This document shows, one piece after another, positions 5,448-8,961 of a stretch of DNA of 64,000 nt. Below the pieces are notes generated by a model. The model ran no database searches. It worked only from the letters and a program-made list of their open reading frames with translations, and was not told the DNA's origin. Position numbers and translations under genes: made by a program. The DNA is taken from positions 1 to 64,000 of the forward strand of contig NZ_JAJFAV010000007.1 in NCBI RefSeq assembly GCF_020711235.1, in the 5' to 3' direction. The stretch is from Hymenobacter sp. 15J16-1T3B (lineage in GTDB: Bacteria > Bacteroidota > Bacteroidia > Cytophagales > Hymenobacteraceae). Positions within the stretch are counted from its first letter, which is position 1. The number at the start of each line of letters is the position of its first letter.

Positions 5448-5828
5448 ATGCAACAGTGCTTGGCCGTCTTCCTTTCGCTGCTTGTCCTGCTGCAGTCATT
5501 CAGCCGGGAAATGCTGGTATTGGATTACGCCCTGCACCAGCAGCGCATCACGGAACGGTTTTGCGTGAACAAAACCCGACCGCAGCTGCGCTGCAATGGG
5601 CGCTGCCACCTGCGCAAGCAATTGGCCAACGCCGGTGACACGGACAAAAAAGCACCGCAAAGCCACGCTAAGCTCAAGTTTGAGGCCCTACCGCTGGCCC
5701 GTTTCGTGACGCTGCCCAGCCGGCGCCTGCCTTGGGCGGTCCGGCCGACCTTCCGGCGGCAGCAGGCGCTGCGCGTGGGGGTGGAAATCAACCGGGACGT
5801 GTTTCGCCCGCCGGTGCAACGGGGTTAA
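5448..5828 (+). CDS. Small membrane-anchored protein with CNGRCHL motif
   Basis: 126 residues. An N-terminal hydrophobic segment (CLAVFLSLLVLLQSF) is followed by ERFCVNKTRPQLRCNGRCHLRKQL. The spacing of three cysteines and a histidine recalls a small uncharacterised Bacteroidota family with the pattern LCENKDKPELxCNGKCxL, often near metal or redox genes. The segment faces the periplasm if the helix is a signal anchor. The C-terminal half is basic and low in identifiable features. It lies 60 bp upstream of the MbnP-like lipoprotein, so a role in copper or heme handling is a reasonable guess but unproven. Confidence 0.6.
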   Translation: MQQCLAVFLSLLVLLQSFSREMLVLDYALHQQRITERFCVNKTRPQLRCNGRCHLRKQLANAGDTDKKAPQSHAKLKFEALPLARFVTLPSRRLPWAVRPTFRRQQALRVGVEINRDVFRPPVQRG

Positions 5829-5888
5829 CTGCCCCGTCTGTTGCCGCGCTGCGGCGCCCTTCCCCACCACCCCAGTTTAGTTACGCCC

Positions 5889-6674
5889 ATGCTTTTCCGT
5901 ACTCTTTCGACCACTCTTGCCACCCTGCTTCTCGGCGCCACGCTCGGCCTGACCGCCTGCGACGACGACAACCCGACCACTGATACGCCTACTTCCGGCA
6001 AGCTCAACTTCGAGTTTGAAAACGTCGTCGGCAGTCAGTCCCTGACCTTCGGCAACTCTTATACCACCTTGCAAGGCGACCAGTTTACCGTCAGCAAGTT
6101 CAATTACATCATCAGCAACATCAAGCTGACCAAGGCCGACGGCAGCAGCTGGGCCGAACCCGAAAGTTACCACCTCGTGAAACAGGCGGACATGACCTCG
6201 CGCAATTTCGAGGTAAGCGGCGTCCCGTTCGACGATTACACCGGCCTGACGTTCACCATTGGCGTCGATGCGGCGCGCAACACGGCGGGGGCCCAGACCG
6301 GGGCTTTGTCGCCGGACAACGACATGTACTGGGGCTGGACGACCGGGTACATTTTCCTGAAGATGGAGGGCACCTCCCAACAGTCGCCTACGGGCGCCTA
6401 CACCTACCACGTCGGCGGCTTTCAGGGCCTCTACAATTCCGTCCGCACCGTGTCGCTGCCGTTGCCAGCCGGCGTGACCTCGCTGCACATCAGCGCAACC
6501 CAAACGCCGCAGCTGCACCTGAAGGCGGACGTGCAGAAACTCTTTACCGGCCCCAAGTCCTTCCGCACCTCGCAAATCAACCACATCATGAGTGCTGATT
6601 CGAACGCGGTCCGGCTGGCCATGAATTACGCGGCCGGCATGTTCCGCCTCGACCACGTGCACAGCGGCGAGTAA
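5889..6674 (+). CDS. MbnP-like lipoprotein (candidate copper-binding protein)
   Basis: 261 residues from the ATG at 5889. A start further upstream would put 16 unrelated residues before a clean signal peptide. The lipobox LTAC is followed at once by DDDN, an acidic stretch like the lipoprotein export signal that places Bacteroidota lipoproteins on the cell surface. The mature domain (LNFEFENVVGSQSL, FNYIISNIKL) and YWGWTTGYIFLKMEG match the MbnP-like family. In methanotroph MbnP/CorA, a tryptophan is oxidised to kynurenine by a diheme partner and binds copper. Here W148 and W150 are candidates by motif only. It is followed 10 bp later by a MauG-type diheme protein, which supports the pairing. 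Confidence 0.8.
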   Translation: MLFRTLSTTLATLLLGATLGLTACDDDNPTTDTPTSGKLNFEFENVVGSQSLTFGNSYTTLQGDQFTVSKFNYIISNIKLTKADGSSWAEPESYHLVKQADMTSRNFEVSGVPFDDYTGLTFTIGVDAARNTAGAQTGALSPDNDMYWGWTTGYIFLKMEGTSQQSPTGAYTYHVGGFQGLYNSVRTVSLPLPAGVTSLHISATQTPQLHLKADVQKLFTGPKSFRTSQINHIMSADSNAVRLAMNYAAGMFRLDHVHSGE

Positions 6675-6684
6675 GGTTTTGTCT

Positions 6685-7743
6685 ATGCGACGCGCTTGGA
6701 CAGTCCCGTTGGCCGCCGTGCTGGCGGGGCTGCTCATGGCAGGGTGCCACCCCGATGCCGACGTGCTGAGCTCCGCGGAGCCGGTACCGGGCAGCGTCGT
6801 TCCCGCGAATTTCCCCCCGCCCGCCTACGGGCCGGAGCTGAATGCGCCCGACCGCGCCACGTTCGAGCTGGGCCGCAGCCTATTCTACGACCCGCTGCTC
6901 TCGCGCGACAGCACCGTGTCGTGCGGGACCTGCCACCGCCAGACTGATGCCTTTGCCGACGCGGGGCAGCGCCTGAGTGCGGGCGTGCTGGGCCACCGCG
7001 GCCTGCGCAACGCCCCGCCCCTGCAAAACCTGCGCTGGCGCCGCACCCTGATGTGGGACGGAGCCGTGGCGCACATCGAAAACCTGCCGCTGGCCCCGCT
7101 CACCAACGCGCAGGAAATGGACGAAACCCTGCCCCGGGTGCTGGCCAAGCTCAACCGCCACCCGGCGTACCCTGCCCGCTTTGCCAGCATTTACGGTCCG
7201 GGGCCCATCACCTCCTACCAGTTTCTGCGGGCCCTGGCTCAGTTTACGGCGGCGTTGACCTCCGCCAACAGCCGCTACGACCAGTATGTGCGCCATGAAC
7301 CTGGCGGTACGCTGTCGGTTCAGGAGCTGCGCGGTCTTACCGTGTTTCGGGCCAATTGCGCCAGTTGCCACGCCACCGACCTGTTTACCGACGAAACCTA
7401 CCGCAACAACGGGCTGGACCGCAGCTTCGCGCAGGATTCGGGCCGGGCGCGCATTACCGGCCGGCCCGACGAGCGGGGCCTGTTCAAAGTGCCTTCACTG
7501 CGGAACGTAGCCCGTACCGCGCCCTACATGCACGACGGCCGCTTTCAGACGCTGGACCAAGTACTCGACCACTACGACCACGGCGTCGTGCCTTCCGGCA
7601 CGCTCGACCCGCTGCTGCGCCGCCCCGACGGCAGCCTCGGCATCCGCCTCGACGCCGAGCAGCGGGCGGATCTGCGGGCGTTCTTGCTGACGCTGACCGA
7701 CGATGCTTTCCTGCACAATCCGCAATTGGCCCCGCCGCGTTGA
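6685..7743 (+). CDS. Diheme cytochrome c peroxidase/MauG-family lipoprotein (MbnH-like)
   Basis: 352 residues from the ATG at 6685; the TTG two codons earlier is less likely. Lipobox LLMAGC. Two CxxCH heme c sites (VSCGTCHRQ and CASCHATDL), the family WDG motif after the first heme (LMWDGAVAHIENLP), and the C-terminal APYMHDGRFQTLDQVLDHY. Family members either reduce hydrogen peroxide or, like MauG and MbnH, oxidise tryptophan side chains of a partner protein. It starts 10 bp after the MbnP-like gene, so MbnH-like maturation of that protein is the favoured inference. A plain peroxidase role remains possible. Confidence 0.85.
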   Translation: MRRAWTVPLAAVLAGLLMAGCHPDADVLSSAEPVPGSVVPANFPPPAYGPELNAPDRATFELGRSLFYDPLLSRDSTVSCGTCHRQTDAFADAGQRLSAGVLGHRGLRNAPPLQNLRWRRTLMWDGAVAHIENLPLAPLTNAQEMDETLPRVLAKLNRHPAYPARFASIYGPGPITSYQFLRALAQFTAALTSANSRYDQYVRHEPGGTLSVQELRGLTVFRANCASCHATDLFTDETYRNNGLDRSFAQDSGRARITGRPDERGLFKVPSLRNVARTAPYMHDGRFQTLDQVLDHYDHGVVPSGTLDPLLRRPDGSLGIRLDAEQRADLRAFLLTLTDDAFLHNPQLAPPR

Positions 7744-7797
7744 ACCGGCCCGGCGACGCTGTAGTTACCTTTCTGCCACACCCATTACGTTCTGCCT

Positions 7798-8904
7798 GTG
7801 CTCCACACCGTTACGCTCCGCCGCCTGATTCCGCTGGCCGCCGCTAGTGCCCTGCTGGTGGCCGCCTGCAAGCCCGATAAAGACGTGGAAGAAGCGTTTG
7901 CGGCGCCCACGCCCCTCACGCTGGCCACGCCCCAGGGCTTTCCAGCCATGGCGGCCATGCCCGCCGACAATCCGTTGACCGAGCAAGGCGTGGCCTTGGG
8001 CCGGATGCTGTTCTACGAAAAGAAGTTATCCAGCGACGGTACCGTCTCCTGCGGCTCCTGCCACCAGCAGAGCAAAGCCTTTACCGATGGCCGGGCGCGG
8101 GCCTTGGGCGTCGGCGGCCAGCAGCACGCGCGCGGCAGCATGGCGCTTATGAACATGGCGTGGTCTCAAGATTTCACCTGGGACGGCGCGCACACGGAGC
8201 TCGAAAAGCAAGCCCGAGTGCCCCTGGAAAACCCCGTCGAAATGCACCAGTCGCTGGCCACCAGCGTGACCAAGCTGCAGCAGACGAGCAACTACCCCAA
8301 GCTGTTCGGGCAGGCGTTTGGCTCGTCCAAAATCACGGAGGAAAACGTGCTGAAAGCCTTGGCACAGTTCGAACGCACGCTGGTGTCTGCTAATTCGCGT
8401 TACGACCAAGCCCTGCGCTTCGAGCGCAGCCTCACGAGCACCGAGCGCCAGGGTCAGCAGCTGATGGGCCACGCCACAGCCTTCGTGCGCGGCGCCGAGT
8501 GCGTGCACTGCCACGATCCGCAGCTGCTGTTTGCCGGTCCCCGCCACACGTTCTTCAACAACGGCCTCGACCAACCGCCCTTCGCCGACCCCGGCCGCGG
8601 CGGCGTCACTGGCGTCGCGTTCGACCAAGGCATGTTCAAGGCGCCCAGCTTGCGCAATATTGCCCTGACGGCCCCTTACATGCACGACGGGCGCTTTCAG
8701 ACGCTGGAAGAGGTGCTCGATCATTACAGCGACCATGTGAAGGTTAGCGCCAACCTCGATCCGCAGCTAATCAACAGCCCCAACGACCCTTCCGGCCGCA
8801 TTACGCTCACCGCGCTGGAAAAGCAGAAAATCATTGCGTTCCTGCACACGCTCACCGACTCAACATTCATCACCGACCCGCGCTTTTCCGACCCCAACCC
8901 GTAG
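7798..8904 (+). CDS. Second diheme cytochrome c peroxidase-family lipoprotein
   Basis: 368 residues, GTG start at 7798, lipobox LLVAAC. Hemes bind at VSCGSCHQQSKAFTD and CVHCHDPQLLF. The WDG motif (FTWDGAHTELEKQ) and YMHDGRFQTLEEVLDHY are conserved. It is a clear paralogue of the preceding gene: both carry NSRYDQ, DERG/DQGMFK, and APYMHDGRFQTL blocks. A tandem duplication followed by specialisation (one protein-modifying, one peroxidatic) is a possible reading. A bidirectional terminator follows at 8927-8961. Confidence 0.88.
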   Translation: MLHTVTLRRLIPLAAASALLVAACKPDKDVEEAFAAPTPLTLATPQGFPAMAAMPADNPLTEQGVALGRMLFYEKKLSSDGTVSCGSCHQQSKAFTDGRARALGVGGQQHARGSMALMNMAWSQDFTWDGAHTELEKQARVPLENPVEMHQSLATSVTKLQQTSNYPKLFGQAFGSSKITEENVLKALAQFERTLVSANSRYDQALRFERSLTSTERQGQQLMGHATAFVRGAECVHCHDPQLLFAGPRHTFFNNGLDQPPFADPGRGGVTGVAFDQGMFKAPSLRNIALTAPYMHDGRFQTLEEVLDHYSDHVKVSANLDPQLINSPNDPSGRITLTALEKQKIIAFLHTLTDSTFITDPRFSDPNP

Positions 8905-8926: not shown

Positions 8927-8961
8927 AAAAAGCCCCGCTCAATCACCGAGCGGGGCTTTTT
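8927..8961. terminator. Bidirectional terminator between the diheme gene and ftsZ
   Basis: AAAAAGCCCCGCTC (8927-8940) pairs perfectly with GAGCGGGGCTTTTT (8948-8961). T-runs occur on both strands, so it can serve the plus-strand diheme operon and the minus-strand dcw cluster. Confidence 0.9.

Follow-up and report, generated by a model that had tools for sequence, protein, structure and literature searches.

Within positions 1 to 64,000 of contig NZ_JAJFAV010000007.1 from Hymenobacter sp. 15J16-1T3B, the whole 64,000-nucleotide stretch analysed here and called the window below, positions 5448-8904 hold four genes on the + strand that are read, with fair though far from complete confidence, as a Bacteroidota copper-controlled MbnP-MbnH operon under a small-gene switch, in which one diheme protein (A) would oxidise MbnP and a second (B) would be separate. 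The observed part of this reading consists of families, motifs, gene order and conservation, and from these we infer tryptophan oxidation, copper binding, cellular location, ribosome arrest and the direction of that arrest. In outline, diheme A would oxidise Trp148 of MbnP to kynurenine by chemistry of the MauG kind, and this kynurenine, together with Met146 and His174, would complete a Cu(I) site at the outer membrane; B would be an older paralogue with a separate task. The small gene at the head of the operon would act as a copper sensor in cis, its C-terminal FRPP slowing or stopping the ribosome during its synthesis and copper on the cysteines of its CX9CX3C motif altering that slowing, such that the downstream genes would be switched via transcription termination or start-site access, as for CruR and CutF.

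The gene identities are the firmest element of this model. The four genes are separated by intergenic gaps of only 60, 10 and 54 bases, and the second of them encodes an MbnP-family lipoprotein of 261 aa (5889-6674, with the start taken at ATG 5889; the longest open reading frame starts at TTG 5841) that scores 198.4 bits against the Pfam family PF20243, whose gathering cut-off is 27. It is followed by diheme lipoprotein A (6685-7743, with ATG 6685 taken as the start) and by diheme lipoprotein B (7798-8904), the second paralogue, both of MbnH/MauG type and both well above the PF03150 cut-off of 25.6 (170 and 196 bits, respectively). By sequence, both A and B find their best PDB match in 6e1c, entered as a “Di-heme enzyme”, which we take to be MbnH. 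Because the Pfam scores lie far over their cut-offs and 6e1c is the best PDB match, these identities are not due to chance, and membership of MbnP and both diheme proteins in the broad families is well supported. The first-pass annotation, made from the letters alone, had proposed an MbnP-like protein with MbnH/MauG-like diheme neighbours, and both identifications are borne out by these matches. The motifs it had named can also be read in the translations, namely lipobox cysteines at C24 of MbnP (LTAC), C21 of A (LMAGC) and C24 of B (LVAAC), an acidic DDDN directly after the MbnP cysteine (CDDDN), Trp148 and Trp150 within YWGWTTGYIF of MbnP, and four CxxCH sites (CGTCH and CASCH in A, CGSCH and CVHCH in B). 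The acidic stretch after the lipobox cysteine is the sole pointer to a putative surface location of MbnP.

The putative kynurenine/copper motif of MbnP, Met146-Tyr-Trp148-Gly-Trp150 (6324-6338), and the putative copper ligand His174 (6408-6410) are conserved in a manner consistent with this assignment. In an alignment of 38 of the 58 MbnPs collected, Trp148 is invariant, as the first-pass annotation would have had it, and Met146 and Trp150 are nearly so. Two outcomes by which that annotation could have been refuted, a lack of MbnP family matches and a lack of any conserved Trp, did not occur. All four residues align with MbnP from the methanobactin operon of Methylocystis parvus, a member of the same PF20243 family (90.3 bits), and the MbnP profile also matches, weakly (E 0.02) and over GMAWNW and VHVG, PDB entry 7l6g, which is presumably the MbnP of Methylosinus trichosporium. 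Manesis and colleagues are said to have found in 2021 that MbnH turns the first tryptophan of WxW into kynurenine and that the Cu(I) site of MbnP includes one His and one Met; by sequence alignment, Met146 and His174 may be these two ligands. The likeness to the M. parvus methanobactin operon thus extends to the Pfam families, the gene pair, the M-x-W-x-W plus His arrangement and the MauG-type heme residues, and a comparable MbnP-MbnH pair is, we believe, carried by the methanobactin operon of Methylosinus. The window MbnP has one cysteine, however, whereas that of M. parvus has six, and the window locus differs from methanobactin operons in its two diheme paralogues and its lipoboxes, with no methanobactin genes seen adjoining it.

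PF20243 is present in 39 of the 58 genomes of the relatives set (own genome counted) and above cut-off in 50 of 198 Bacteroidota genomes, and of the 11 named loci at which a relative of the window MbnP occurs, the nearest belong to Hymenobacter species and Solirubrum. Where a diheme gene lies within 3 kb, the Met-Trp-Trp-His set (MWWH) is complete in 40 of 45 MbnPs. A second MbnP of the same genome (L032:5934-6701, C33:429926-430510) lacks a diheme gene throughout the surrounding 12.6 kb that were retrieved and retains WxW, and its putative copper His is replaced by Asp, as it is in four relatives. These five His-to-Asp cases (own genome, G001, G002, G003 and G006) appear to form a single paralogue group within the genus of the window and so probably represent one event; the idea that MbnPs lacking a diheme gene have generally lost their copper site was therefore set aside as weak, given also that 6 of 13 such MbnPs keep MWWH. 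As a separate observation, the window MbnP carries a C-terminal HVH, and an HxH occurs near the end of 27 of the 58 MbnPs, possibly as a second metal site.

The diheme proteins bear the residues by which MauG-type enzymes may be told apart. When aligned with a MauG encoded in a mau operon and the MbnH of M. parvus, A and B each show two CxxCH sites, the inter-heme Trp, the catalytic Glu and the Tyr ligand of the six-coordinate heme (Trp93, Glu113 and Tyr294 in what we take to be MauG numbering, given in part in PMC6405878), and across 63 diheme proteins, window included, of which 26 are in the diheme family alignment, Tyr and Glu are kept in 63/63 and the inter-heme Trp in 61/63. A and B are nonetheless distinct from MauG proper, being 32-33% identical to the mau-operon protein, with no mau genes seen, and scoring 166.5 and 188.6 bits against TIGR03791 (MauG), whose cut-off is 443.85 and which mau-operon MauG matches with 554.1. 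It could be argued that A and B are instead ordinary peroxide-reducing cytochrome c peroxidases and that MbnP binds metal without any tryptophan oxidation, as bCcP structures strongly match both proteins and BthA is described as having a Tyr ligand and yet turning over peroxide (PMC6405878). This is improbable, since 6e1c outranks every other PDB match of A and B, Tyr occupies the heme-ligand position in all of the 63 diheme relatives, and MbnP is so regularly accompanied by a diheme gene: one lies on the same strand within 2 kb at no fewer than 64 of 68 Bacteroidota MbnP places (70 minus two under cut-off), which is a lower bound, as the diheme places were a subset, picked by eye among those listed, that omits many long open reading frames and those on other contigs.

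If oxidation of MbnP by a diheme partner is accepted, the data point to A as that partner. The position of MauG Gln103 is Leu in A and Gln in B, and this Gln is lost in 27 of 36 diheme proteins encoded directly 3' of MbnP versus 1 of 27 others. In a tree built by a quick method, all 36 MbnP-adjacent proteins fall within one branch of 38 (support 88) and 21 others, B among them, within a second (support 94), with four further diheme proteins outside both. Judged from their sequences, A and B are old paralogous types, and the split across the tree implies a doubling that predates the genus. In a mirror-tree comparison over the 17 loci where A, B and MbnP each occur exactly once, not corrected for the species tree, MbnP distances correlate with those of A at 0.78 (partial 0.69) and with those of B at 0.53 (partial -0.12). 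As MbnP distances track A and not B, A is likely the MbnP oxidase. An alternate scenario would have A and B act in turn, one on Trp148 and the other on Trp150 or at a later step, to yield a doubly modified MbnP; near-invariance of both tryptophans, joint retention of A and B in many relatives, the presence of the MauG residues in both, and the absence from A of the Gln103 residue that B keeps could all be so explained. This must be considered very doubtful, however, as many loci with MbnP and a single diheme gene still have MWWH, and MbnP distances are unrelated to B once A is accounted for. With A preferred as the likely oxidase, the second diheme partner proposed in the first-pass annotation survives in part: a second diheme gene is indeed kept in many relatives, but only A looks like a dedicated partner of MbnP. 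B is also the less fixed in position: it follows A in the window and in several relatives and in others precedes the small gene or MbnP, and three loci (L074, L067 and L072) have two MbnPs for two diheme genes. In L033 (7322-8424) a B-type gene is present as two overlapping pieces in different frames. Plasmid tables label some diheme genes “methanobactin export MATE transporter MbnM” (L166:5869-7029, L177:6731-8002 and L178:6878-8032), apparently wrongly, as the protein encoded at L166 reaches 493.7 bits with the MbnH model.

The first gene (5448-5828) encodes a small exported Cys protein of 126 aa, with a signal sequence recognised by eye, and is a candidate copper-sensing upstream open reading frame. 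Among all 28 copies found in the relatives set, Cys39, Cys49 and Cys53 (CX9CX3C; codons Cys39 to Cys53 at 5562-5606, a putative metal site) and Pro121 and Pro122 are invariant, the latter forming an FRPP four residues before the end (proline codons at 5808-5813) that may slow the ribosome. At E<=1, the window protein has no match in Pfam or NCBIfam and the family none in the PDB. Pfam/NCBIfam matches across the 28 members were weak and confined to single members; one of these, to the QH-AmDH gamma family of NCBIfam (0.0043), was put down to chance.

The gene neighbourhood of this family is consistent with a role in copper-related expression. It was found at 105 places in 78 of the 198 Bacteroidota genomes. 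An MbnP lies no more than 2 kb away at 27 of these, and each time the small gene precedes it in the same orientation, in a recount that did not require strand and for which contigs with both genes were picked by eye; of the 28 copies in the relatives set, 25 lie upstream of MbnP within 2 kb, the copy in L074, which sits between two MbnPs, being counted both ways. By genome, both genes occur in 38, the small gene only in 40, MbnP only in 12 and neither in 108, counts that carry no correction for kinship. At 40 further small-gene loci, with rows read by eye, a TonB-receptor-cluster gene is the first or second gene 3' of the small gene in 27, a beta-barrel gene holds that position in 5 more and MbnP in 2. 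Two of the cluster receptors were scanned and proved to be TonB-dependent receptors with TIGR01778 (TonB-copper) as the best NCBIfam match, under its cut-off. The 198 genomes gave 43 TIGR01778 matches, with up to five candidates scored per genome; at 23 of them a same-strand copy of the small gene precedes the match by no more than 4 kb, the other 20 lack a nearby copy, and no copy takes any other position within that distance. One row (L152) unites the small gene, MbnP, a diheme gene, a YtkA-domain protein and a TonB-receptor-cluster gene. A second family copy in the window's own genome (L114:4998-5390, C16:60603-60875) has other neighbours. Among the 92 fetched loci plus the window, beta-barrels, many with an N-terminal CDICG-like motif, adjoin diheme A or follow the small gene in 25 (for example L036:3891-4886); they were rejected as part of the module, the 25 comprising 18 within L032-L083, 7 within L114-L153 and none in the window, and a query of the window's own genome with one such protein gave no match.

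A proline pair at the very end of the product further suggests that the act of translation matters. All 68 family members have Pro-Pro among their 25 C-terminal residues, as against 3 of 213 control genes; the pair sits 2-4 residues before the end in 58 of the 68 and is mostly part of FHPP (33) or FRPP (11); [HR]PP within the last 15 residues is found in 49/68 and 0/213, respectively, and the last Cys lies 62-71 residues from Pro-Pro in the 63 measurable members. RNA with more C than G is typical of Rho-loading sites, and at loci L114-L153 the 3' end of the small gene is in the top tenth of its locus for C over G in 31 of 40 cases, against 17 of 258 other gene ends; over all 68 copies the figure is 63%, so the C excess is less often seen at MbnP-type loci. 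In the window, the gap between the small gene and MbnP (5829-5888, + strand) has 29 C versus 13 G and is a putative control region. A DUF2946 gene of Ideonella, with ARGPPALA at the end of its product, lies directly 5' of genes for MbnP, a diheme protein and a TonB receptor, and two further plasmid loci checked in the same way had no DUF2946 gene listed.

If the small protein were instead a stable copper(I) or thiol protein, periplasmic or held at the membrane, that passes copper on to MbnP or maintains cysteines in the reduced state, and if its upstream place were mere operon order, this would also account for the N-terminal hydrophobic stretch, the invariant cysteines and the company of copper-type TonB receptors, as well as for copies on the opposite strand (L060) or 3' of MbnP (L081), positions that a cis switch for MbnP does not call for. 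Such a carrier is rather unlikely, since it offers no reason for a C-terminal Pro-Pro in every one of the 68 members; the upstream place in 27/27 cases of the 198-genome set and the DUF2946 gene at the same place in Ideonella also speak against it. The small protein is thus probably, by anatomical analogy with CruR and CutF, a copper-sensing upstream open reading frame. CruR (DUF2946, Bordetella) and CutF (Rhodobacter) are likewise small exported Cys-motif proteins with a Pro-Pro or Pro-rich C-terminus encoded before copper operons (PMC9426467; PMC9973294), CutF combining a CxxxC motif with a proline-rich end (PMC9973294), and CruR operons are described as holding OprC-type TonB receptors, PepSY_TM and MbnPH-like genes, so that MbnPH-like genes behind CruR homologues are already known (PMC9426467). 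As described there, the two proteins have CXXC or CxxxC in place of CX9CX3C, the motif is RAPP where the small family mostly has F[HR]PP, and the Cys-PP spacing is 45 versus about 67; the effect of copper on expression also differs between CruR and CutF (PMC9973294). The small protein would accordingly work like CruR/CutF and is not claimed to be a DUF2946 member, an assignment by sequence that neither profile scan, place comparison nor hhalign supports. Where the first-pass annotation had the small protein as part of a surface redox module, a copper-sensing upstream open reading frame now appears more likely, and its single four-gene operon holds as to the tight gene order, with the proviso that the small Cys gene is more likely an upstream sensor.

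Several observations nevertheless weigh against a copper-controlled MbnP-MbnH operon under a small-gene switch. The window MbnP is 13% identical to that of M. parvus over 248 columns and reaches 50.9 bits against TIGR04052, the NCBIfam MbnP equivalog (cut-off 140; M. parvus MbnP, 290.9), and is therefore not filed under that equivalog; similarly, A and B score 210.3 and 291.1 bits against TIGR04039 (MbnH), below its cut-off of 362.85, where M. parvus MbnH scores 493.7. MWWH is still complete in 6 of the 13 MbnPs that have no diheme gene within 3 kb, and the mirror-tree signal may stem from gene linkage. The small gene does not keep its place everywhere, the exceptions being L060 (opposite strand), the second copy of L081 (3' of MbnP) and L046 (more than 2 kb off), nor is it always first, as a B-type gene or pieces of one lie directly 5' of it in L033, L034, L035, L040 and L043. 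The end of the window small gene itself shows no excess of C over G (rank 0.38), and an RNA hairpin sought between it and MbnP was no stabler than shuffled sequences (z -0.5). Lastly, no relation emerged when the small family was compared with one DUF2946 protein (hhalign probability 0.4), PF11162 was not among the families matched at E<=1 by any of the 28 members, its places in the 198 genomes (E<=0.1) overlap none of the small-gene places, and the family motif is F[HR]PP, not RAPP or RGPP.

The surroundings of the operon comprise an FMN reductase gene upstream (PF03358, 4825-5352), genes also upstream that we take to be sdhCAB-like, and, downstream on the opposite strand, a presumably ftsZ-like gene. 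A hairpin followed by a T run 3' of B (8932-8961, + strand), picked out by eye, may be a terminator, but was not among the calls of a terminator scan, and a scan for sigma-70-type promoters returned none.

Portions of this picture have precedents. Published work places MbnP-MbnH pairs far outside methanobactin producers (PMC3621798) and counts CutF-like proteins in Bacteroidota (PMC9973294), so that the presence of such genes in the phylum is not a new idea; further, MopE/CorA with their diheme partners SACCP and CorB are described as copper proteins that contain kynurenine and have a gene for a MauG-like protein next to their own (PMC3912023). Among the literature matches listed, no paper dealt with this type of MbnP-MbnH operon in Bacteroidota, and, within the literature searched, the CX9CX3C / F[HR]PP family itself, the position of its genes ahead of MbnP-MbnH in Bacteroidota, and an old A/B diheme pair of which one member tracks MbnP appear to be new. 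At even odds, there may be a class of copper-sensing arrest peptides particular to Bacteroidota (CX9CX3C, F(H/R)PP) that sets the levels of kynurenine-type copper proteins (MbnP-MbnH) and of copper TonB receptors by a shared post-transcriptional switch, along with an MbnP operon having two functionally split MbnH proteins. The locus thus provides a testable candidate for a protein-derived kynurenine copper site outside methanotrophs and a diheme paralogue pair of which one member tracks its putative substrate, and the small Cys family may serve as a marker gene that flags copper loci in Bacteroidota.

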